A stretch of 64,000 bases of DNA, taken from contig NZ_BBCC01000007.1 in assembly GCF_001311845.1 (NCBI RefSeq), positions 1 to 64,000 on the forward strand. Direction: 5' to 3'. The first letter of the stretch is position 1. Each line of letters opens with the position of its first letter. The translations under genes were made by a program, and so were the position numbers. Below are positions 5,908 to 18,440 of the stretch, piece after piece. The DNA is from Desulfosarcina cetonica JCM 12296 (lineage in GTDB: Bacteria; Desulfobacterota; Desulfobacteria; Desulfobacterales; Desulfosarcinaceae). Under the pieces are notes generated by a model. The model was not told the DNA's origin. It did no database searches and saw only the letters and a program-made list of their open reading frames with translations.

Positions 5908-7283
5908 ATGGTAGGGCCGATGAACGATTTGGATTTGAATGCATATTGGAAATCCATTGTCGACACGATTCAGGATGGCGTCATGGTGGTGAGCCCCCAG
6001 GGAATTATCATCTCGGTCAATCGCGCCTTTGAAGAGATCACCGGGTATCCCCATGGTGAGATTGTCGGCCGTGCCTGTACGACGCTCAACTGCACCTCTT
6101 GCGAAATCGCCCGGGAGAAACCGGGGTGCCATTGGTGCGTGATGTTCGAGAAAGGCCAGCTCAAAAAGCAGCGCTGCACGATCGCCCGCAAGGATGGGCG
6201 GTCGGTCCAAATCCTCAAGAACGCATCGGTATTGAAGGACCCTGGCGGGACCGTTTGTGGTGCCGTGGAGACCATTACCGACATCACCGACCTGGTCGAA
6301 AAGGAGACCCAGATCGCAAGTTTCCGGCGGGAACTGGCCGCCGAAGACCGCTTTCATGGCATGATCGGTGTCAGCCAGCCGATGCAGCGGGTGTTTGAAT
6401 TGATTGGCAATGCGGCGGTTTCCGACGCGCCGGTAATTATCTACGGGGAGAGCGGGTCGGGCAAGGAGATGGTCGCCCAGGCGATCCACGAGGCCGGCAG
6501 CCGGCGCAAGGGGCCCTATGTGAAGGTCAACTGTGCCGCGCTGAACGAATCCCTTTTGGAAAGCGAGCTTTTCGGTCATGTGAAGGGCGCCTATACCGGG
6601 GCCCACAAAAGCCGGGAAGGCCGATTCGAGGCGGCGGATAGGGGTGACATCTTTCTGGACGAAATCGGTGACCTGCCCCTTTCCACCCAGGTCAAGCTGC
6701 TGCGGGTGTTGGAAGAGAAGGTGATCGAGCGCGTGGGAGACCACCAGCCCATTTCCGTTGATGTGCGCTTTATTTCAGCCACCAACCGCGATCTGCCGGC
6801 ATTGATCGCCGCCGGTGCGTTCCGGGACGATTTTTATTATCGCATTAACGTGATACCCATCCGGATTCCCCCTTGCGGGAACGGGCCGAGGATATCCCGT
6901 TGCTGGCGCGTTCGTTTTTCAACCGCATCCTGCTCAAAAGCGAAAAGAAGCTTGATGGCATATCCAAGGCGGCCATGGACCGCATCATGGCCTACCCCTG
7001 GCCGGGCAATGCGCGCGAACTGAAAAGCGCCTTCGAGTTTGCCTTTGTCAGCTGTCCCGGCGGCATGATCGGGCCCGAGCATCTGCCGCCCCAAATCACG
7101 GCGCAACCTTCCGTATGCATCGAATCGCCGCCGGGCAACACCGGGCAGAGCTTGGACGAGATCAAGCGCCAGCGCTTGGTTGACGCCCTGGCGCGTGCCG
7201 GTGGCAATCGTACCGAGGCCGCCCGACTGCTGGGGCTTTCACGAACCAGTGTATGGAAGCAGATCAAGCGGTACAACCTGTGA
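5908..7283 (+). CDS. PAS-AAA+-Fis sigma-54-dependent activator (one frameshift)
   Basis: The domains in order are: a PAS domain (residues ~10-125) with a dense cysteine group (C-x4-C-x2-C-x8-C-x2-C in GRACTTLNCTSCEI onward); an AAA+ domain with Walker A GESGSGKE, the sigma-54-contacting loop GAYTGA, and FLDEIGD; and a C-terminal Fis helix-turn-helix (GGNRTEAARLLGLS). The frame breaks near 6870, where ATTCCCCCTTGCGG needs one more C to give RIPPLRERAEDIP. Repaired length is about 458 residues. ATG 5920, preceded by TAGGG, is an alternative start. It is divergent from the Hdr-TusA operon with its sigma-54 promoter, so that operon is the obvious target. The PAS cysteines suggest a redox, metal or sulfide/persulfide signal, but this is inference. 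Confidence 0.9.
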
Positions 7284-7876: not shown

Positions 7877-9088
7877 ATGAAAACAATGCACACAAGTAAA
7901 ACGGCCTACCGCGTGGGGTGGCTCATTGACGGGAGTGGACAGCCAGCCCTTGCAAATCGGATCATCATAGTGGACGGCGAACGATTCGAAGCCGTTCTCG
8001 AACCCGATGAAGCGCTGCCGTCGGAGGTGGGCATTGTCGATCTTTCCGACTGCACGGTCTTTCCGGCGCTGATCGACAGTCATGCGCACCTGCTCATGTC
8101 CGGTTCCACCGACCCGGTCGTGCGCAAATATCAACTGGAGAATACGCAGTGTTATGACGACCGCGCCACCATCATTGCCGAGCATCTCGCCCAGCACCTG
8201 TCCTGCGGCGTGCTGGGCGTTCGTGACGGCGGCGATCAGCAGGGTGATGTTCTGCGGTACAAAACGGATTCCACCCAACCGACTTCCCCCGTGACGATTG
8301 CCGCCCCCGGTCGGGCCCGTCACGCGCCGGGCCGTTATGGCAACCTCATCGGCATTCCCGTGGAGGCCGGCATGAGCCTTGCCCAAAGCCTTTTCAGCGG
8401 CAATACCCGGCGAGATCATGTCAAGATTGTCAACTCCGGCCTTAACAGCCTTACCCAGTTCGGCATCGAAACCCCACCGCAGTTCGATGCCGACGATCTG
8501 CGTGGTGCCGTGGCCGCAGCGCGCGAGCATGGACTCCCCACCATGGTGCATGCCAACGGCCACCTGCCGGTGAAGCTGGCCGTTGAGGCGGGGTGCAGCA
8601 GCATCGAGCACGGATTCTTCATGGGGCGGGAGAACATGCGCCGCATGGCCGATGAGGGGGTCGTTTGGGTGCCCACGACCGTGACCATGCAGGCTTACCA
8701 GGATTACCTGGCGAGCCAGGGGCATCGCAGTGACCCTTCCTTTGCCGAAGTCTCGCGGAAGAATCTCGAACATCAGCTGGAGCAGATCAACACCGCACGA
8801 CAGTTGGGGGTGACCCTGGCCGTGGGCACGGATGCGGGTAGCCCTGGCGTCCATCATGGCACGGCCATGCAAACCGAAATTCAGCTTTTTATCAAGGCGG
8901 GCTTTCGTGTGGAGGCGGCGATCCGCTGTGCCAGCCGCAATGGCGCCCGTTTGATGGGCTTGCTGGATCGGGGAAAAATCAGCGCCGGTCTGCGTGCCGA
9001 CTTTTTGGCCGTTCGCACGCCGCCCCAAACGCTTCCGCAAGCACTCCATGCGATTGTCTATCGGGTGGTCAACGGCCGACCGACTTGA
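7877..9088 (+). CDS. amidohydrolase-family metal-dependent hydrolase
   Basis: A 403-residue protein of the imidazolonepropionase/prolidase-like amidohydrolase family. Metal-ligand motifs appear in the expected order: DSHAHL (~residue 69), HVKIVNSG (possible carboxylated Lys), VHANGH, SIEHG, and the catalytic Asp in GTDAGSPG. The C-terminal ISAGLRADFLAV closes the beta-sandwich domain as in the family. No signal peptide is visible. The substrate cannot be read from sequence; cyclic amides or dipeptides are typical. It lies 190 bp after the OsmC gene with no clear ribosome site, so it may be a separate unit. The gap 7688-7876 holds nothing I recognise. Confidence 0.85.
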   Translation: MKTMHTSKTAYRVGWLIDGSGQPALANRIIIVDGERFEAVLEPDEALPSEVGIVDLSDCTVFPALIDSHAHLLMSGSTDPVVRKYQLENTQCYDDRATIIAEHLAQHLSCGVLGVRDGGDQQGDVLRYKTDSTQPTSPVTIAAPGRARHAPGRYGNLIGIPVEAGMSLAQSLFSGNTRRDHVKIVNSGLNSLTQFGIETPPQFDADDLRGAVAAAREHGLPTMVHANGHLPVKLAVEAGCSSIEHGFFMGRENMRRMADEGVVWVPTTVTMQAYQDYLASQGHRSDPSFAEVSRKNLEHQLEQINTARQLGVTLAVGTDAGSPGVHHGTAMQTEIQLFIKAGFRVEAAIRCASRNGARLMGLLDRGKISAGLRADFLAVRTPPQTLPQALHAIVYRVVNGRPT

Positions 9089-9149: not shown

Positions 9150-12100
9150 TTACTCATCAATTGACCGTCTGCGATTGCCGATCCGTTCTTTTTGCCGACA
9201 GACTTTGTTGAAAAGTCGCCTGAGGGGGGTGGTCACCCTATTCATGGTCGACTCCCTGCTGCGGAAAATTTCTTCCAGGGAGAGATGCGGATCCCGGGCC
9301 GGGCTTCTCAGGTAACGCCTGAGGGCCGTCAAGCGATTCTTGATCTCCTTTTCCGCGCGGAATCTGAGAATTTCCTTTTTCCTCAGAATGGTTTCCTTGA
9401 CCGCCTCGTCGGCACCGTCGCCTTGGTGTTTATCCAGCTTGTAGCGGATGCGGATGGTGATCAGCTCCTGAAGCAGCTGTTCATATTCCGGATCGAGGCA
9501 GATCACTTCGGGAACGAGATCCCCGAAATGGGTCACCCCCAAAATATCCTTGTCCTGGTTCCAGTAGTTCACCAAGAATTCCGGCTCCAGATCCATGTAA
9601 TTCTTCAGCGGCATGTACATGCGCCGCAGATACATGAGCACCTTCTCGGTCTTTTTGCGTTGACCGCCGATAATCACCGAGCCGCCCACCTCGCCGCGCT
9701 TGACGCCCTTGGTCCATGGGGCACCGGTGATGCCGAAGTCATTGTATACCGGGATGTGCATCAGCGCCGACAGGGTATTGAGGGCCAGCGCGTAGCCGGC
9801 CGAAGGGCCGCCGACATTGTACGATGCCGAGAGCAACTGGTGATGGATGGTATAATTCTCCAAAAATTCGCCCAACAATCGTGCCGTGCTGACCTTGGGA
9901 TCCATGTCCTGCAGATAGTTCTTGACCATGGTCAGGGCTTCGTGGGCGCTCTGCTGGGTCATTTGCACCGCCATCTCCATCTGTGCGCCGGCGGATGAAG
10001 AGGAGGAAACCGCACCGGTAACCATGACCTTTTCCGCGGAAAGGCTGTAGGTCAAGCTGGTGGCGATGGGCAGCAGCACACCGGTGACATCGTTGGCCCC
10101 CACACCGATGATAAATCCCACCTGCGGCTCCTGGCTCAGTTCGGCCTCCAGGAACTCGTCCAGCACGACCTTGCCTTTTTTGGTGGGGCTTTCGGAAATT
10201 TCATGACGCGCCGACCTGAGATGGCTGGGCACCATCGGATAGTCGCCGGGTTGCTGGATCGGCGCCAACAGGTCCAGCATGGCGGCGTAGTGGTCGATGA
10301 AGCGATCCGGCGCATTGCGCACGGTGGTTTTCAACTGGTTGTGGGTATCGATGGCCTCCAAAATGCCTATCAGTGTCTTGAAGTTGAACTTGAAAAAATT
10401 TTGGCGGGTTTTGGCCGGTTCGTGATGGATCTGGCGCAGGCGCTGGATCACCTCGAACTCGGTGTTTCGCAAGGCGCGAGCCTTTTCCACAAAGGCGGTA
10501 TAATCGGCCGGTGTGTTGCAAACGCCCTTGGCCGCCTCGACGATGCTGGCCGTATTCAGGTCAGCGGAAAGCGGCATGCCGTCCAGCGCGTTATCGATGA
10601 TCCGGATGATATCGTCCTTGTTCAAGAGCCCCTTGATTTCCATCACCTTGAGGCGCTTGGAACGGATCAGGGCCGGATCCAGAATGTCCAGGCGGTTGGT
10701 GGTCAGAACGGTGAAGACCTTGTGCAGGGGGGTCTCTCCGTCGATGAGGTTGAGGAACTTGTTGGTCAGCTTGTCCGACGGGTTGCCGCCCGTGTCGCTA
10801 CGCCTGGGCGCCAGGGCATCGCCTTCATCAAAAAAACCACCGTTGGTGCGATCATCTTGGCGATGTCATAAACCCGTTCAAGGTTGTCCACGGCACCGTC
10901 CACGGGATTGGACGGATCCTGGAGCGCGCTGGCGCTGGTGGCGATGTCATGCACATCGGTATTTTCACTCAGCCAGGTGCGCACCAGGAAGGTCTTGCCG
11001 CTGCCCGGCGGCCCGTTGAGCACAACGCCTTTCTCCTCACTGACATTGTAATACAGGCAGTTGTTGGACATTTCCGAAAACACGTCCTTGACGCCGCCCA
11101 CATAGCTTCCCATTTAACGTCACGGTCCATGCGGCCGACAATTTTTTTATACAGATCGCCATAGGAGTTCTGGGCCACCAGTTCAAAGGCCTTTCTGACC
11201 AGCATGGCATCGTCCAGATAGGCGGCGGCAAAACCGCCCCTGATCTGGATGATCGAGTGAATCAGCTTGCGCACATAGGAAGGGATTACCTTGAGGGTCC
11301 GCTCCTTGAAAATCGCGTAGAGCTTGTCCACGGTTTTCGAGATATCCTCGGGGAAAAGACATCCCCCGCGTTCGCAGACATCGCCGTTTTGCTGGGACAA
11401 TACCAGGATATCATTGCGCAACAGCTCCAGGCGCACCACCTCGCGCAGGTTATCCGGGTTGGTCCAGTAGTCGGAGATGTTGATGATGCTGCCCTTTTCG
11501 ACAAAGCGACGGTAAATGGCGCCATCGAAGCGCTCGGGTTGATCCGTCGTAGCGATCAACAGGCAATCCCGTTTGCCGCTGATAATCTCATCCAGCACGA
11601 TATTGGAGGTATCCACCAGCGTGCGCTGCTGGCGGGTGACCCCGGAATCCCGACCGGTGGCCTTGCCGAAGGCACTGTGGGCCTCCTCGATATGGCGAAT
11701 GGATGTGCGCCGCGGATCCCCCAAGGCCTTTTTGAAATAGTTGCCCGGTTCGCCGGCCAGGGCCGTCTGGAAGTCATTGGGGGTGACCATGGCGTAATCC
11801 ACCCAGATCCCCTGTTCCTCGAGTTGGGAAAGGCCCCGGCCGATTTTGCCTTTGAGAATCCAGCGCAGGATCGGAATCCGTGACAAGCGCTTGTAATTTC
11901 GGATTCGCTGACGTCGGGAAATTTCGACGGCCAGGGTGGGATCGATCTCCTCGATGGTCTTCCAGAAGGGTTCGCTGGCCAGGGCTTCCTCTTTTTTGCG
12001 GCGCAGGTCAATCTCCGGGCGGACGTCGTTGCCGAAGATGATCCGCTCGATGGCCTGGTTTACCGTTGAGGTCTTCCCGCTGCCCGAAGGGCCCACAAAC

Positions 12101-12579
12101 AGCAACAGCGCGGCTTTGGGAACGCTCGGATCCGAGATGTACTCCTTGCGCAAGTGGGCGCGATAGACTTTTTCGAAAAGCGCGTAAAGCTCCACCGGAA
12201 TGTGAACATCCACCAGTTCTTTGTCGAGCAGGGAGAGCAGGTAGCGATAATCCTTGGACGAGACCTCTTTCTCGAGGATCCGGTTCCAAGCCTCCTGGGG
12301 ATTGGTATGACCCGAAATTTCGAATCGTTTCTGCCAGTCGGTGAGGATGTCCGGATCCTTGAGCACGTCAAAATGTTTTTCCGGCGCATCCATGAAAATC
12401 GAGAGAACCGCTTCCAACAGGCTGTTGAGGAGTCCCATGGGCGGCCGGTACTGATTCAGCCGGGCCCGCATGAAGGATTTGGTCTCCTGGGGCCAGGCGG
12501 AAACCAGTTCGTTGATTTCACGAATCCGGTTTTCTGGCAGCTGGACGTAGGTGATCTCTCTAGTTAGCCGTCTGGCCAT
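9150..12579 (-). CDS. tandem AAA+ ATPase with C-terminal Lon-type (S16) protease domain, two frameshifts
   Basis: From ATG 12579 (MARRLTREITYVQLP, preceded by GGGAGGAA) the repaired protein is about 1,142 residues. AAA module 1 has Walker A GPSGSGKT at ~161 and sensor LLIATTDQ. Module 2 has GPPGSGKT at ~521, Walker B VVFFDEGDA and sensor VLTTNR. The C-terminal third is a Lon P-domain: the catalytic Ser is in GGPSAGY (~926) and the dyad Lys probably in GGQRKK (~976). Two frame breaks are each cured by one base, near 11,110 and in a T run near 10,830. Classical Lon has one AAA module and ends DGPSAG, so this architecture is unusual. It overlaps the upstream SPFH gene by 20 nt, implying coupling: a membrane-anchored ATP-dependent protease or unfoldase. 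Confidence 0.88.
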
Positions 12580-13501
12580 GGGTTCCTCCCTTGGGCCGGT
12601 TTTTAGCGGCATCGAATGCGGGAAGGGCGATTGCCGGGGTGTTGCCCTGGGTGTTCTGGATAACGACGGTGTTTTGTCCCTGTTGCTGCTTTTCGTAGGC
12701 CGTGGCCCATTTCTGCTGGGTGAGGAATTCCAGCAGCGCCGCATTGGTCGCGTCGTCCTTACCGCCCACGGCATGCTGCAGGTTTTTGATGCCGTCCAGG
12801 TATGCCGCATACAACTTGCGGATACGGCTGGCTTCCTGATCGGCCGCGTAATTTTCGGCTTCGGCGATCAATTCACGCCTTTTTTTCTCCTCCGAGGCTT
12901 CCACCAGCTTGTCGCCAAAGCGGCTCTCCTTGAGCACGAAGCTGACCACTTCAATGCCGTATTTCTTTTCCAGGGTCGGTCCGCCGACATTGATGGGACG
13001 GGATTTCAGCGCCTTGAAGATCGCTTCCTTGATGGTCTCCCGGTCACTGATCAAACGGTCCACGTCCTGGGCCTGGAGAATGTCCTTGACGATGCCGTCG
13101 TAGTCTCCCTGGAGCAGTTCCAGGGGGTTCAGATTCTCGATGGCCCAGCGGTGCAGGTCGCGAATCCGGTAGGTCAACACGCCCGATGTCCACAAGGCCA
13201 CATTGCCTTTGGAGATGATGCGCATGGGCGCCGGGCTGCCACCCAATGGCATGGTCTGGTTCATTAGGGGGACTTCCTGTTCGATCCGGGTGAAGTAGGG
13301 CAGTCGCGCATGCCAGCCGACCTCGGTCACCGCCTGGCGTACGCCGCCGAATCGTTCGAGCACCACGGCATAATTCATTTTGACTTTGAAAATCGTTTTG
13401 GTGGCATAAATCGCGGCAGCCAGTCCGTAAATCAATCCGACGACCGTGATCAGGGCAAGCAGGCGGCGCAAGATGGTTTTTACAAAGGAACGCCGCAACA
13501 T
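12560..13501 (-). CDS. SPFH/prohibitin-like membrane protein (HflC-like)
   Basis: A 313-residue protein with one N-terminal membrane helix (ALITVVGLIYGLAAAIYA, residues 15-32). A Band-7/SPFH domain follows (NYAVVLERFGGVRQAV onward), then a charged coiled-coil region (EASEEKKRRELIAEAENYA). SPFH proteins form ring assemblies that hold or restrain membrane proteases, as HflKC does for FtsH. The real start may be ATG 13524, which has AAAGGAGCTGAC in front. It becomes in-frame if the C run at 13508-13514 (read on the minus strand) had eight bases instead of seven. The C-terminus overlaps the AAA-Lon gene by 20 nt. Confidence 0.85.
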   Translation of the reverse strand: MLRRSFVKTILRRLLALITVVGLIYGLAAAIYATKTIFKVKMNYAVVLERFGGVRQAVTEVGWHARLPYFTRIEQEVPLMNQTMPLGGSPAPMRIISKGNVALWTSGVLTYRIRDLHRWAIENLNPLELLQGDYDGIVKDILQAQDVDRLISDRETIKEAIFKALKSRPINVGGPTLEKKYGIEVVSFVLKESRFGDKLVEASEEKKRRELIAEAENYAADQEASRIRKLYAAYLDGIKNLQHAVGGKDDATNAALLEFLTQQKWATAYEKQQQGQNTVVIQNTQGNTPAIALPAFDAAKNRPKGGTHGQTAN

Positions 13502-13541
13502 CGGGTTGGGGGGGAATTGGGCATGTCAGCTCCTTTGGTTT

Positions 13542-14762
13542 TTACAGATTTCCGGCCAACGCCAGTTGGTTGCGATTAATCGCGATGTGGAAATCCGGCT
13601 GAACGAGATCGTGGTGGTGAACCTCAAAGGGCAGGTACACCAGAAGGTAGCGGAGCGCCTTGACCTGAATCGCGGGAAGATCCGCTTCCACCCGCTTCTG
13701 GGGCCGAATGAAACCGGCTATGTTCAGCTTGAGGGATTCCACCGATTCGGTGACCGGCAAATTGACCGGATGCATGGGACCTTTGGGGACTTCGGGAACC
13801 AGGTGCTCCCGAGGTTGGGAAAGCGTGGTTTGGTGTGTCAAACGCAGAAAACTCTGCGGACGGACCTTGAACGCCGGCCCCCAAAAATAAAAGGGGATCT
13901 TTTCCCAGCCGGGCTGAGGAATTTTGGGCAGGTTGGCGGTTTTGATCAAGTCGGCATAGCTGTCAAGAAGGATGCCGGATGCCCGGGCCCGGATTCGCCA
14001 GAAGGGTAGATACAGGACTTCGTTCGCCGTTGTCGTGGACATATGGGCGACATTGACCCGGCTTAAGCCTTGTTGGGTGGCTTGCCACATGGAGGCACAA
14101 TTGGTGCAATGTAACACCAACGCATCCCGGCTGCGTCGAGATCCCAGCCGCATGCGGGACACAAGGTGGGGATGAATTGGATTTGCCACCGGGCCGGCCT
14201 CCGGGGTATTGGCCGGGATCGAAAGGCGCTTCCATTTCTGCCGATACCGGCTGGTTCAGGACAGCGTCCATGATCTTCCGGTCGGCATAAAAAGGGGCGT
14301 AGATCAGACTCAGGGACTCGCCGATATGGGCCTGGTGTAAAATTCTTGGACCCGAACGATTGTTGAAACGCGACAGAAAGGTGTCTTTAACCGCCCGAAA
14401 GGAAGGTTGGGTTTGATGAACCACCCGTCGGTATCAGGGTTGACGAATTTCAGTGCCATGGCCTGGCTGCGCAGGCCGACGGAAACCGGAAAGAGCGGTG
14501 CGGCGACCGCCTGCTGGCTGGCATCCAGAAACCGGTTCTGAATGCCAGCGGGCAGGCAGGAGAACAACATTCCCTTGAAACGCCAGTAAGGAAAGTAGAT
14601 CAGCGCTTTGCCGGCCGGTGCATGGTGAGGTAAACGATAACGGAAATAGGGGTGCGCCACCAAGTAGGATTTAACTTTGCAGAAAGCGCACGTCACCAGC
14701 CGGTCTGTCTCTTGGAGTTCGGCCGGAGCACCACATTGGGGACATTGATGGGCGATGAAAAA
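13542..14762 (-). CDS. zinc-ribbon protein of the SPFH/AAA-Lon cluster (multiple frameshifts)
   Basis: Pieces in three frames form one protein of about 400 residues. The N-terminal zinc ribbon is CPQCGAPAEL...CAFC. A middle part (YFPYWRFKGMLF, SLIYAPFYADRKIMD) follows, then a second ribbon, CPACGWDLD in one frame and CTNCASMW in another, and a C-terminal part ending LALAGNL. The repeated aromatic motif (FPYWRFKG, YLPFWRIRA) suggests an internal duplication. At least three one-base breaks are needed. The start is unresolved: the open frame begins just after the stop of the upstream SPFH gene with no ATG, GTG or TTG before the first CPQC. I do not recognise a named family. Conservation of the ribbons across frames argues that the breaks are sequence errors. 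Confidence 0.65.
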
Positions 14763-15905
14763 TTAATATTTCTCTCCGCACTGGGTACAGAAACGGGCGC
14801 CGGTCAGATTTTCGGCACCGCATTTGGCGCAATGCACCGGTTTGGGCTTCTCTTCCACAGGGTGGCCGCATCGCGAGCAGAATCGGGCGTTGGGTGTCAG
14901 GTTTTTCCCACACTTGCTACACTGGGTGAAAACCAGTTGCTGATGCCCGCACATGGGGCAGAACTTGGCGGCCAAAGGGATGCTGGCCTGACATTCGGGA
15001 CACATCGTTTCCTGCGAAACGGGGGACGGTGGCCCGCCTGACGGGGATGGACGACCCGTAGCGTTAAAATACTGGGCAAACATCGCCGGCATCATCAATC
15101 CCAGACTCGTTCCCATGCCCGATGAGCCATTCCCTTCACCTTCGGCGGCCTTCTCCATGGCCATGGCCGCTTTCATCTGCATGAGTTTGTTCATGTCGTC
15201 GATGACACCCATGCGACTCCGGTCGTCGATGGCTTTCTGCACATCCGGCGGCGGGGTGATGGCATTGGTGTAAAGGTGGGTCAAACCCAGGCCGAAATGC
15301 TTGAAATCCTCCTGCAACCGTTGGGTCAAACCCGCTGAAAGTTCGTCGTATTTTGCCGGTAGGTTCAAAATTGAATCAATGGTTTCCCCCATGAAATCGT
15401 TGAACCGTGAAACGATGACCCGATTGAGGTATTCTTCGATCTCCTCGGTGGTGAACATGCCCTGGGTTCCCACCATGGTATTGATGAAAAGCACCGGTTG
15501 AACCACCTGCAGGTTAAAAACGCCGAAAGCCCTGAGGCGCACCAATCCCAATTCGGTATCCTTAAACGCGACTGGATCACGGGTGCCCCATTTGAGATTG
15601 GTGAACACCTTCATATTGACAAAGTAAACCTCTGCCCGCAATGGACTCTTCATCCCCCAGGGCAGACTGGCGATCTTGGTGAGAATGGGGATGTTGCCGG
15701 TTTTCAGGGTGTGACGGCCTGGGCCAAACGCTTCGATGGCCCGGCCTTTATAGAAGAAAATGCCCGCTTGGCTTTCCCTTACGGTCAACTGGGCGCCCCA
15801 CTTGATTTCGCCGGAACCTTTTTCCGGCAACCGATGGACAAATTCACGGCCGCTTTCGTCAAACCATTCGAGGTTTTCAAGAAAGACGCGATTGTCGGCT
15901 TGCAT
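14763..15905 (-). CDS. SPFH-domain protein with C-terminal double zinc ribbons
   Basis: A protein of about 380 residues starting MQADNRVFLENLEWFDES, with AAAGGAG before ATG 15905. Residues ~10-250 form a cytosolic SPFH/Band-7-like domain of the YdjI or virion-core-protein-like type. A Gly/Met-rich linker (MGTSLGLMMPAMFAQYF) follows, then zinc-ribbon pairs: CPECQASIP...CPMCG, CSKCGKNL...CSRCG and CAKCGAEN...CTQCG. No membrane helix is evident, unlike the other SPFH protein of the cluster. The stop codon touches the start of the zinc-ribbon gene. It may be a soluble scaffold or substrate adaptor for the AAA-Lon protease. The family call is firm; the role is inferred from context. Confidence 0.87.
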   Translation of the reverse strand: MQADNRVFLENLEWFDESGREFVHRLPEKGSGEIKWGAQLTVRESQAGIFFYKGRAIEAFGPGRHTLKTGNIPILTKIASLPWGMKSPLRAEVYFVNMKVFTNLKWGTRDPVAFKDTELGLVRLRAFGVFNLQVVQPVLFINTMVGTQGMFTTEEIEEYLNRVIVSRFNDFMGETIDSILNLPAKYDELSAGLTQRLQEDFKHFGLGLTHLYTNAITPPPDVQKAIDDRSRMGVIDDMNKLMQMKAAMAMEKAAEGEGNGSSGMGTSLGLMMPAMFAQYFNATGRPSPSGGPPSPVSQETMCPECQASIPLAAKFCPMCGHQQLVFTQCSKCGKNLTPNARFCSRCGHPVEEKPKPVHCAKCGAENLTGARFCTQCGEKY

Positions 15906-16139
15906 GGTTTGCTCCTTTATGTCTGTTTCATGTAGCGATGGGATGTGACGCATTCCTCGATTTCAGTTGCCATATCGGTCCAAGTATCGTCAGGATATGA
16001 AAAAACCTAAGCCCTTCTGGTGGGGAATACGTCAATCCCGAGGGAAACGACTGAAAGCGCAAACGATCATGGGGCAATGGAGGTCTTGTGGGCCTGTAAA
16101 TGGCCAACAGGGGCTTTTGTACGCATGGTAAACGGTAGG

Positions 16140-16541
16140 TCACGGGTGATCCGTGGGGATGGACGTTAGCTGATCGATCTTCTGGTTGGCACGATTCAAT
16201 TCATTTTTTGCTTGTTGAAGATCATCCATAACGGCGGAGAGTTGTTTGCGTAATCGTTCGGAAGACGCTTTTTCCGTTTTAAGGTTTTTCCGAATGGCTT
16301 CAAGGCTTGCGGTCACCTTTTCCATCTCACCTTGCAGGTTGCCGATGGCGTCTGTTTTCGATGAAGATTTTGCCTTTGTTGCCTGCAACGCCTGATCATA
16401 CAACGAGAATGCCCGGTTGCCGGTAATCAGGGCACAAATCGCAAAAAAAATCGCCATTGCGATACAGACCATCGACAATACCGGGAGCTTTTGACGCCAG
16501 AAAGTGTAAGTTTGCAGCCCGTTTGTCACGTCCGAGGCCAT
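16140..16541 (-). CDS. single-pass membrane coiled-coil protein
   Basis: A 133-residue protein. A short cytosolic start leads to a membrane helix (LPVLSMVCIAMAIFFAICAL, residues ~19-38). A long heptad-like helix follows (GNLQGEMEKVTASLEAIRKN through NELNRANQKIDQL). AAGGAAACC precedes the ATG. It lacks similarity that I can name. It resembles its upstream neighbour (16602-17483) in layout, and both read into the SPFH/AAA-Lon group, so the two may form a membrane pair. The 15,906-16,139 gap downstream holds no gene I can support. Confidence 0.7.
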   Translation of the reverse strand: MASDVTNGLQTYTFWRQKLPVLSMVCIAMAIFFAICALITGNRAFSLYDQALQATKAKSSSKTDAIGNLQGEMEKVTASLEAIRKNLKTEKASSERLRKQLSAVMDDLQQAKNELNRANQKIDQLTSIPTDHP

Positions 16542-16601
16542 GGTTTCCTTTCTATAAGAATCGCGCAGTGTTGTATATTTCGGTTTGTTGTCGTCAGTGG
16601 A

Positions 16602-17483
16602 TTAGTCGTCAAAAATACCAACAATGACGGACAATGACCATTCCCGATATTTCTTGTCAATCTTTGCCGACACAGGCAATCCGATCGTGGCCAGCACCCG
16701 TTGCAGAAAAGATGCGTAGGATGGCGCGGTCTCTTTACTGTTGACCACTAAAACGATCCCTTGGGGAGGATCCGCAAAAGCGCTTTTTGCCACGCCATTG
16801 GTTTTCCAACCGTCAGCAGCCAGTGTTTCATCGATCTGCTTGGCCGTCAGCTCCGAGCCTTCGTCGCCGAGCACACAGAAAATGTCGATGTTGCCTTTGG
16901 GGCCTGGGTCGAGCAGATCAATGAGTTGTCCCTTCTGGCTTTCTGACAACCCACCCTCGATTTCAAGATCGATATCAAGGGTCACGCCATCGATGCCATC
17001 GTTCACCGACTCCAGCTCAAGAAAATCCGTTACACGGTCCAATTCGTCCGGTTCATGGTCCAAGGCAGCGACTTCGTTGTCCTGGGGCGGGATCATCTCA
17101 CTTGTCTGGGGCTCCTGGGGGTCATGGGCTTTAATGGCGGCTTCGGCAATTTTCAGCCGCTTTTTCGCATCAAGGAGTGCTTGACGGAGTTCTTCTGCGG
17201 AGGATTTGGTGCTCTTTAGCTTGAGTTGGTTGATATCCTGATGCTGCTGTGTTTCAAGCAGCTCCTTACGAATGGATTCAGCAGCCTTCTCAAGGCTTCG
17301 AATCTGTTTGCTAGCGGCTTCCAATCTTTCGGTAAGCCGTCGATTCTCTTTATTGGCCTTATTCGTGCCAAGCACCCACAGAATTCCGGCCAGAATTGCG
17401 AAAGCGACACTCACCAGTAACATCGAACCATGCAGCGCGATCAGGGATTCCAAATGGGTCCACCATGACAACATTGTCGGCAA
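16602..17483 (-). CDS. membrane-anchored coiled-coil protein with conserved C-terminal domain
   Basis: A 293-residue protein. A membrane helix (SMLLVSVAFAILAGILWVLG) lies at residues 20-39, then a coiled coil to ~120. An acidic linker (DHEPDELDRVTDFLELES) follows, and then a compact alpha/beta C-terminal domain (NIDIFCVLGDEGSELTAKQI ... QGIVLVVNSKETAPSYASFL). I do not recognise that domain. It is first in the leftward cluster and diverges from the TerB-DnaJ gene across ~200 bp, so promoters for both lie in 17484-17684. A sensing or tethering role for the protease cluster is a guess from topology. Confidence 0.7.
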   Translation of the reverse strand: MPTMLSWWTHLESLIALHGSMLLVSVAFAILAGILWVLGTNKANKENRRLTERLEAASKQIRSLEKAAESIRKELLETQQHQDINQLKLKSTKSSAEELRQALLDAKKRLKIAEAAIKAHDPQEPQTSEMIPPQDNEVAALDHEPDELDRVTDFLELESVNDGIDGVTLDIDLEIEGGLSESQKGQLIDLLDPGPKGNIDIFCVLGDEGSELTAKQIDETLAADGWKTNGVAKSAFADPPQGIVLVVNSKETAPSYASFLQRVLATIGLPVSAKIDKKYREWSLSVIVGIFDD

Positions 17484-17684: not shown

Positions 17685-18440
17685 ATGGGATGGATGGGTA
17701 AAATTGTCGGTGGGACCATCGGTTTTGCCATTGGAGGGCCGCTGGGCGCCATTTTCGGCGCAGCTTTTGGTCATGCTTTCGATACTGGCGCAGAAATCGA
17801 CGAAAAAGCAGCCCACCAACGATTGTCAAGCACGGAGCAGCACCAGCTGACCTTTTTTGTGGCGGCTTTTTCCATGTTGGCCAAACTTTCTCAAACCGAC
17901 GGGCATGTCACCCGTGAAGAGATCGACTCCATCGAAACGTTCATGGAGAGGGATCTGCATTTAACCCCCCAAAGCCGTAACGTGGCGGTCAATATCTTCC
18001 GCACCGCCCTTAATGCACCGGGGACATTCGATGATTTTGCCCGGCAGTTTTACGGCCAATTTCAGCTTAAGCCCCAGATGCTGGAGTTGATGATTGATAT
18101 CCTCATTCGGGTCGCTGTTGCCGATGGCCAAATGACGGCTGGAGAAGAAAACTTAATCCTGTCGGCCGTAACCATCTTCAATTTCAGCCATTCCCGCTAC
18201 GAACAGCTGAAATCCCAGTACGTCAAAACCGCTGACAAAGCCTACGCCGTGTTGGGGTGCAGCCCGAACGATTCTGATGAACAGGTAAAACGATGTTATC
18301 GCCAGCGCGTTCAGGAATACCATCCGGATAAGATCGCCGCCAAAGGATTGCCGGAAGAGTTCACCCGCTTTGCCCAGGACAAGTTCAGGGAGATCCAGGA
18401 TGCATGGGAACAGATCAAGGACGCCCGTGGAATCAAATAA
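17685..18440 (+). CDS. TerB-like and DnaJ-domain co-chaperone (DjlA-like)
   Basis: A 251-residue protein with three parts. The first is a glycine-rich N-terminal hydrophobic segment (VGGTIGFAIGGPLGAIFGAA), a glycine-zipper membrane association element. The second is a TerB/DjlA-type helical domain with paired acidic motifs (QTDGHVTREEID, VADGQMTAGEENL). The third is a C-terminal J domain with the HPD tripeptide in EYHPDKI. J domains stimulate DnaK ATPase, and DjlA is a membrane-anchored co-chaperone. GGAGG precedes the ATG. Its divergent position next to the SPFH/AAA-Lon cluster supports a shared proteostasis function at the membrane. Confidence 0.88.
   Translation: MGWMGKIVGGTIGFAIGGPLGAIFGAAFGHAFDTGAEIDEKAAHQRLSSTEQHQLTFFVAAFSMLAKLSQTDGHVTREEIDSIETFMERDLHLTPQSRNVAVNIFRTALNAPGTFDDFARQFYGQFQLKPQMLELMIDILIRVAVADGQMTAGEENLILSAVTIFNFSHSRYEQLKSQYVKTADKAYAVLGCSPNDSDEQVKRCYRQRVQEYHPDKIAAKGLPEEFTRFAQDKFREIQDAWEQIKDARGIK

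Follow-up and report, generated by a model that had tools for sequence, protein, structure and literature searches.

This analysis concerns six genes at positions 9150-17483 of the first 64,000 nucleotides of contig NZ_BBCC01000007.1 (this whole stretch is the window) from Desulfosarcina cetonica JCM 12296, assembly GCF_001311845.1. All six are on the minus strand and are transcribed in the order CC1, CC2, SPFHZ, ZN2, SPFH, and AAA-AAA-S16 protease. The conserved unit within this cluster is two genes, encoding the SPFH protein and a protease in which two AAA domains precede a Lon-type (S16) proteolytic domain, and is found mostly in Desulfo-type bacteria. The host assembly is a draft of 7.09 Mb in 558 contigs, 86.8 % complete, in which the locus is on contig C7 (genome G000 in the searches). 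The nearest named relatives found by a close-relative scan are Desulfosarcina, represented by D. widdelii (locus L030) and D. alkanivorans (L031). The genes, and the sites within the protease gene, are as follows.

9150..12579, minus strand: AAA-AAA-S16 (Lon-type) protease gene, in three frames, with an ATG start at 12579
12560..13501, minus strand: SPFH/Band_7 protein (Pfam Band_7), single-pass, the constant partner of the protease; hydrophobic segment at about 13462-13406
13545..14762, minus strand: ZN2, second zinc-ribbon protein, broken across frames, part of a separate bicistron
14763..15953, minus strand: SPFHZ, SPFH domain (Band_7_1) with six CxxC motifs, the other half of the separate bicistron
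16140..16541, minus strand: CC2, single-pass coiled-coil protein with one hydrophobic segment, coiled coil identified by eye
16602..17483, minus strand: CC1, single-pass coiled-coil protein with one hydrophobic segment, coiled coil identified by eye
12070..12093, minus strand: Walker A of the first AAA domain (GPSGSGKT); Walker B glutamate near 11686
10991..11014, minus strand: Walker A of the second, p97/Cdc48-like AAA domain (GPPGSGKT); Walker B aspartate at 10827-10829
9495..10130, minus strand: S16 proteolytic domain, approximate limits; Ser 9801-9803, Lys 9651-9653, Thr 9726-9728, His 9843-9845

The initial annotation, based on the nucleotide sequence, described a membrane SPFH protein overlapping a double-AAA Lon protease, together with two zinc-ribbon proteins, one with an SPFH domain, and two single-pass coiled-coil proteins. 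The domains and the overlap are borne out. The SPFH protein matches Pfam Band_7 (6.3e-18), and has one N-terminal hydrophobic segment; the end of its gene shares 20 nt with the start of the protease gene, where there is a ribosome-binding-site-like stretch. AAA matches are present in each of the three pieces of the protease, with a Lon_C match at 6.9e-7. SPFHZ contains Band_7_1 (2e-65) and three double-zinc-ribbon (DZR) stretches, and the second zinc-ribbon protein and both coiled-coil proteins are likewise present. The protease is not in one frame, however, but is spread over three: 12579-10972, 11113-10769, and 10865-9153.

ZN2 is also broken over several frames in the window, whereas D. widdelii holds ZN2 and the protease as one frame each. 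Intact protease frames are present in 44 of the 52 other loci, encoding 1103-1221 aa counted from the conserved start; of the remaining eight, L040 is irregular and the other seven are truncated where the contig or locus ends. Single internal stops within the matched stretch were seen in G002, G014, G104, and G364 in the order and phylum searches. Two standard Lon copies of the host genome (contigs C37 and C208) are each present as two adjoining pieces. Because the genes are intact in relatives and other genes of this genome appear to be split in the same way, assembly or sequencing error is the likeliest, although not a proven, cause of the frame breaks. The interrupted protease and ZN2 frames could instead mean that the locus is a decayed pseudogene in the host organism. 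This is most improbable, considering the full-length relatives, the similarly split standard Lon genes, and the 86 % identity of the protease pieces in the window to the nearest relative.

Two further observations concern reading frames. A gene at 5908-7283, a sigma-54-type regulator by eye, occupies two frames as do the protease and ZN2, which suggests indel errors in the assembly. In addition, ZN2 has no in-frame ATG, GTG, or TTG from which it could start at about 14762, after the stop of SPFHZ and before its own first zinc ribbon, due either to an unusual start or to a further frame error.

Distribution of the two gene pairs

The protease was identified in 49 of the 242 genomes of the order. 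A fiftieth candidate genome, G078, was dropped, having a 32 % match to the AAA part alone. SPFH (E 1e-40) is present in 46 of the 242, all of them among the 49 with the protease. The three protease-positive genomes without an SPFH match are contig-edge cases: in G200 the contig stops inside the SPFH gene, leaving a fragment that can still be recognised at E 4.7e-7, while the protease frames of G060 and G104 extend past the contig start. Where SPFH is on a contig other than that of the listed protease (G033, G102, G136, G203, and a second copy in G141), a protease gene begins after it in each case. G141 apparently has two SPFH-protease pairs (C130 and C43, L140), the second truncated by the contig end.

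The spacing of the two genes is tightly conserved. The distance from the SPFH stop to the protease start is between -71 and +52 nt in 52 of the 53 loci in which both ends are readable and +202 in the other. The neighbours of the pair differ between families, although some recur, such as an amidohydrolase in 12 loci and a hydrolase-like gene in 10. SPFH and protease distances are correlated across the 53 loci (r 0.84). The phylum search listed 45 of 395 genomes, of which 33 matched in the AAA part only, the full protein being present in 12 of 395 (as two pieces in the host genome). A scan of an 84,980-species collection, which detects close relatives only, returned 19 loci, all from taxa named Desulfo-, Delta-, or, in one case, Proteobacteria.

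No plasmid match covered 80 %, and among 25 pattern matches on viral contigs there was no relative. Models of defence systems gave weak matches to AAA or coiled-coil regions, the best in PADLOC being TRIP13 (8.4e-6), while NCBIfam IteA reached 36.8 bits against a cut-off of 510. The role in phage response that had been suggested for the cluster is therefore not supported, the PADLOC and IteA matches being weak and confined, within the protease, to the AAA part.

A different distribution was found for the zinc-ribbon genes. ZN2 relatives are present in 144 of the 242 genomes of the order, 102 of which are without the protease. In the 42 genomes that have both, ZN2 is beside the protease pair in five (G000, G029, G189, G203, and G216), and in the others it is on a different contig or at least 30 kb from the pair. 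Sixteen ZN2 loci (L113-L128; stretches of 8.6-13 kb) were picked from the 144 genomes, leaning to long contigs and variety. In all 16 of these loci, fetched away from the protease, SPFHZ is directly upstream of ZN2, and neither SPFH nor the protease is present in any of the stretches. SPFHZ-ZN2 is a separate, widespread bicistron.

CC1 and CC2 were recognised (E 1e-5) only in the window, L029, and L030, although short, fast-diverging coiled-coil proteins are easily missed. A six-gene system as a conserved unit was rejected on the ZN2 distribution and the 16 distant ZN2 loci. The six-gene cluster is a neighbourhood local to the Desulfosarcina group, since ZN2 is mostly apart from the protease and CC1/CC2 are found only in close relatives. 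Co-conservation, the lack of which had been named beforehand as refuting the initial annotation, thus holds for the SPFH-protease pair and fails for the zinc-ribbon and coiled-coil genes. The proposal that the zinc-ribbon proteins are adaptors of the protease finds no support in the 102 genomes with ZN2 alone and the five of 42 in which it adjoins the protease.

The two bicistrons are nevertheless adjacent and co-oriented in the window, L029, L030, L031, L048, and L049, with partial adjacency in L032 (ZN2, no SPFHZ match), L040, and L141 (a ZN2 fragment). ZN2 is also commoner with the protease (42 of 49 genomes) than without it (102 of 193; Fisher 1.7e-5, uncorrected for phylogeny or completeness). 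Both observations would fit a wider system, in which the Desulfosarcina group has a single complex of the two SPFH pairs, perhaps joined by the coiled-coil proteins, and the zinc-ribbon pair is a recruited adaptor. Given how rarely ZN2 adjoins the protease, how often it occurs without it, and the narrow range of CC1/CC2, this is distinctly unlikely. In L040, a contig from a Desulfosarcina metagenome-assembled genome, SPFHZ and ZN2 are directly followed by the C-terminal part of the protease, with no SPFH match and no N-terminal part of the protease; this is either a deletion or a misassembly.

The SPFHZ-ZN2 pair has a possible parallel in PspA-YdjGHI of Bacillus subtilis, where a soluble SPFH protein acts with partners from its own operon (excerpts of PMC8581546, in which the words zinc and ribbon do not appear). 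YdjI and YdjG bear zinc ribbons, and SPFHZ, with its Band_7_1 domain and three DZR stretches, may resemble YdjI in combining an SPFH domain with zinc ribbons. SPFHZ-ZN2 is perhaps related to YdjI/YdjG.

Domains of the protease and of its SPFH partner

The protease is strongly conserved. The alignment of 44 full-length relatives has 296 invariant columns out of 1140, far beyond chance, with a lowest pairwise identity of 53 %, and nine members elsewhere in the phylum are 51-66 % identical to the D. widdelii protease. Active sites were compared in an alignment of 62 sequences, which includes partial and near-identical sequences and the C-terminal piece from the window; residues are numbered as in D. 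widdelii (L030). The Walker A lysine is present in 55 of 55 covering sequences for the first AAA domain and 59 of 59 for the second, and the Walker B Asp/Glu of the second domain is identical in all 62. The first domain has Glu-Glu at Walker B.

The second AAA domain is p97/Cdc48-like, p97 chains being its closest solved relatives by profile (1.8e-47). Among NCBIfam models CDC48 ranks first on the protease (2.6e-22), and the matches of Lon models are mainly C-terminal. The first AAA domain, which is divergent, has a fold model that aligns with the N-D1 part of p97 (4ko8_B; Z 15.1, rmsd 3.8, 230 aligned), on a par with chains of the proteasome, an FtsHi motor, and Rix7, and the best Foldseek match of the tandem AAA part is p97 (2.2e-16). 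Between Walker A and Walker B of the first domain there is a basic helical insert with a net charge of +3 to +12 in 57 sequences, which corresponds to L030 residues 214-256, with helices between 214 and 252 in the AlphaFold model. It is possible, as a guess, that this insert is a membrane-contact element touching lipid; within residues 185-290 the best 19-residue stretch has a hydropathy of at most 1.12 (54 sequences, hydropathy only). The AlphaFold models, with a pLDDT of 70.1 for the full length, in which the S16 part is poor, and 63.5 for S16 alone, were used for fold assignment and not for active-site geometry.

The S16 assignment is based on several comparisons. Lon_C is matched in L030 (Pfam 1.1e-6), archaeal Lon domains are matched by profile (1xhk, 6.8e-6), and the domain aligns to two Lon proteins of the host genome (hhalign probability 92.8), with insertions. 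In the fold comparison, the first 41 rows are all Lon, the best being Escherichia coli 3wu4_A (Z 8.4, rmsd 3.8, 145 aligned, from a low-confidence model), and BrxL and RadA rank lower. E. coli Lon S679/K722, numbered from its own gene, correspond to S927/K977 of the protease, within one residue of the dyad predicted in the initial annotation (Ser ~926 and Lys ~976). S927, K977, T952, and H913 are identical in all 62 aligned sequences, the motif at the serine being VGGPSAG or similar; an inactive or absent S16 domain in orthologues, for which the annotation had also provided, was not seen. The second residue after GG, which varies across the 62 sequences (K in 42, R in 16, and T, L, H, and M in one each), was considered as the catalytic lysine and dropped. 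K977 is taken as the catalytic lysine because K722 of E. coli Lon is the fourth residue after GG, a position identical in 62 of 62. Since the ATPase and S16 active-site residues are identical in all relatives covering them, both motors and the peptidase are probably active.

For the SPFH partner, the net positive charge is greater before the hydrophobic segment than after it in 49 of 53 loci, the reverse in one, and equal in three. The N-terminus is therefore basic and probably cytoplasmic, which is the orientation of HflK/C. In the window the protein reaches 17.9 bits against a cut-off of 159.4 for NCBIfam hflK, with no HflC match, and in L030 there is no match to either.

Known systems and proposed mechanism

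Pairing of SPFH proteins with proteases is already known from HflKC-FtsH, prohibitin-m-AAA, and SPFH-NfeD (excerpts of PMC2636767 and PMC12048511). In HflK/HflC-FtsH the SPFH part extends into the periplasm, and the FtsH motor and peptidase are cytoplasmic (excerpts of PMC12048511). The pair described here is similar in that an SPFH protein with an N-terminal membrane helix is encoded beside a probable ATP-dependent protease. FtsH combines two transmembrane helices and a zinc peptidase with a single AAA module, whereas this protease has two AAA domains, an S16 Ser-Lys site, and no clear membrane helix; in addition, there are two SPFH genes in HflK/HflC-FtsH and one here. Pfam listed no M41 match, the hallmark of FtsH, for this protease, which has S16 instead.

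As in Lon (LonA and LonB), an S16 fold with a Ser-Lys dyad is C-terminal to an AAA motor, but there are two AAA domains, the second p97/Cdc48-like. The LON N-domain of LonA was not matched at E 0.01 (Pfam; L030 and L136), and the scores for NCBIfam lon (41.3 bits against 608.05) and for the LonB models (34.6 against 516.6 and 41.7 against 723.3) are far from the cut-offs. The serine motifs are PKDGPSA in LonA and [E/D]GDSA[S/T] in LonB (excerpts of PMC2605481). GGPSAG of this protease is neither of these. Archaeal LonB has a transmembrane anchor inside its AAA module, which on hydropathy alone is not matched here. The likeness to p97/Cdc48 is in the two AAA domains with conserved Walker motifs, the second being closest to p97/Cdc48 by profile; the differences are the fusion to a protease domain and the divergent first domain with its basic insert, and CDC48 TIGR01243 scores 78.9 bits, far under its cut-off of 802.65. 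In SPFH-NfeD, the SPFH gene shares an operon with a protease-domain protein (excerpts of PMC2636767). The domain of NfeD1b is ClpP-type, in contrast to AAA and S16 here. NfeD1b is not known to have a motor of its own.

No model among the Pfam and NCBIfam matches listed spans the whole protease, and no description of the SPFH and AAA-AAA-S16 pair or of a p97-Lon fusion was found in searches of the open-access literature. The 2008 survey of Lon architectures, which covers only two deltaproteobacterial genomes, has no AAA-AAA-Lon_C in its available text (PMC2605481), and the whole word 'Lon' is absent from the available text of PMC2636767 and PMC13086221. No family model or description was thus found for an architecture that joins a p97-type motor to a Lon-type peptidase within a single chain. 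There is a real chance that the pair makes up its own class of SPFH-docked protease; to our knowledge, no SPFH-protease pairing using S16 has been described.

The somewhat favoured explanation is an SPFH-tethered ATP-dependent protease that works like HflKC-FtsH, pulling membrane proteins into the cytosol for degradation. By analogy, the protease would form a ring, presumably a hexamer, with two stacked ATPase tiers as in p97/Cdc48, which would unfold proteins and thread them into a sequestered Lon-type Ser-Lys chamber at the C-terminal side. On the periplasmic face, the SPFH partner would build a dome resembling that of HflK/C, and the cytosolic protease underneath would be held or gated by it; membrane proteins within the SPFH patch could thereby be drawn into the cytosol and degraded. 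The arrangement of the motor would differ from that of HflKC-FtsH, and the protease domain is unrelated. Contact between SPFH and the protease, the periplasmic dome, and membrane-protein substrates are all inferred, and membrane quality control is a reasonable inference as to function.

Several results weigh against this explanation. Co-conservation and a correlation of 0.84 are expected for any stable operon or two vertically inherited genes. There is positive charge on both flanks of the SPFH helix, so that an N-in orientation is not certain. Outside the S16 core, the hydropathy of every 19-residue stretch in 54 protease sequences is 1.6 at most, and without a clear membrane helix the protease would have to contact the dome via the membrane or via the short SPFH tail on the cytoplasmic side. 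The protein as a whole superposes only loosely on p97 (Foldseek; TM 0.24/0.34, rmsd 16), and in both fold models the S16 part has low confidence. In the distant member L136, Lon_C is matched at 9.6e-4, with 19.2 bits against the Pfam cut-off of 21.1, and neither the PKD of LonA nor the LonB motif is present around the serine. Finally, the host genome also has four M41 (FtsH-type) places and two pairs of neighbouring Band_7 places, which could be HflKC-like; Band_7 occurs at seven places beyond the two of the window. As these coexist with the SPFH-protease pair, the latter would be an additional machine.

The lack of a clear transmembrane helix would also fit an alternative in which the protease unfolds and degrades cytosolic or peripheral proteins at the membrane, with SPFH only as a lipid-microdomain anchor and soluble stress-damaged or regulatory proteins as substrates; the basic insert could then touch lipid without SPFH contact. 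One-to-one pairing suggests more than a general anchor, however, in a genome with seven other Band_7 places, and this alternative is considered rather unlikely. The weak S16 similarity of L030 and L136, the absent LonA and LonB serine motifs, the domain insertions, and the low model confidence could indicate that S16 is dead or serves assembly only, leaving a pure p97-like unfoldase. A non-catalytic domain would be expected to lose some of the Ser, Lys, Thr, and His that are identical in all 62 sequences, and this alternative is considered very unlikely.

Recruitment and control of AAA proteases by SPFH domes have been studied mainly with FtsH-type enzymes (see also PMC12048511). A co-inherited SPFH protein and protease with another motor layout and catalytic chemistry would reveal which features of the partnership are general. 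It is a serious prospect, although short of an even one, that the pair represents a further class of energy-dependent membrane protease, with a p97-type double ring, a Lon-type chamber, and its own SPFH dome, independent of HflKC-FtsH and prohibitin-m-AAA. If so, docking on an SPFH dome would be a solution common to AAA proteases that are not related to one another.

Scans of the locus for promoters and terminators were uninformative (promoter-like sites, 3 against 4.9 expected; terminator-like, 14 against 10.6 expected), and Rfam, tRNA, and tandem-repeat scans found nothing on it. The cluster is flanked by two genes.

7877-9088: amidohydrolase-like gene, named by eye
17685-18437, plus strand: DjlA-type TerB-DnaJ gene, from domain and family matches

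The DjlA-type gene diverges from the cluster and keeps the same position in L029 and L030.

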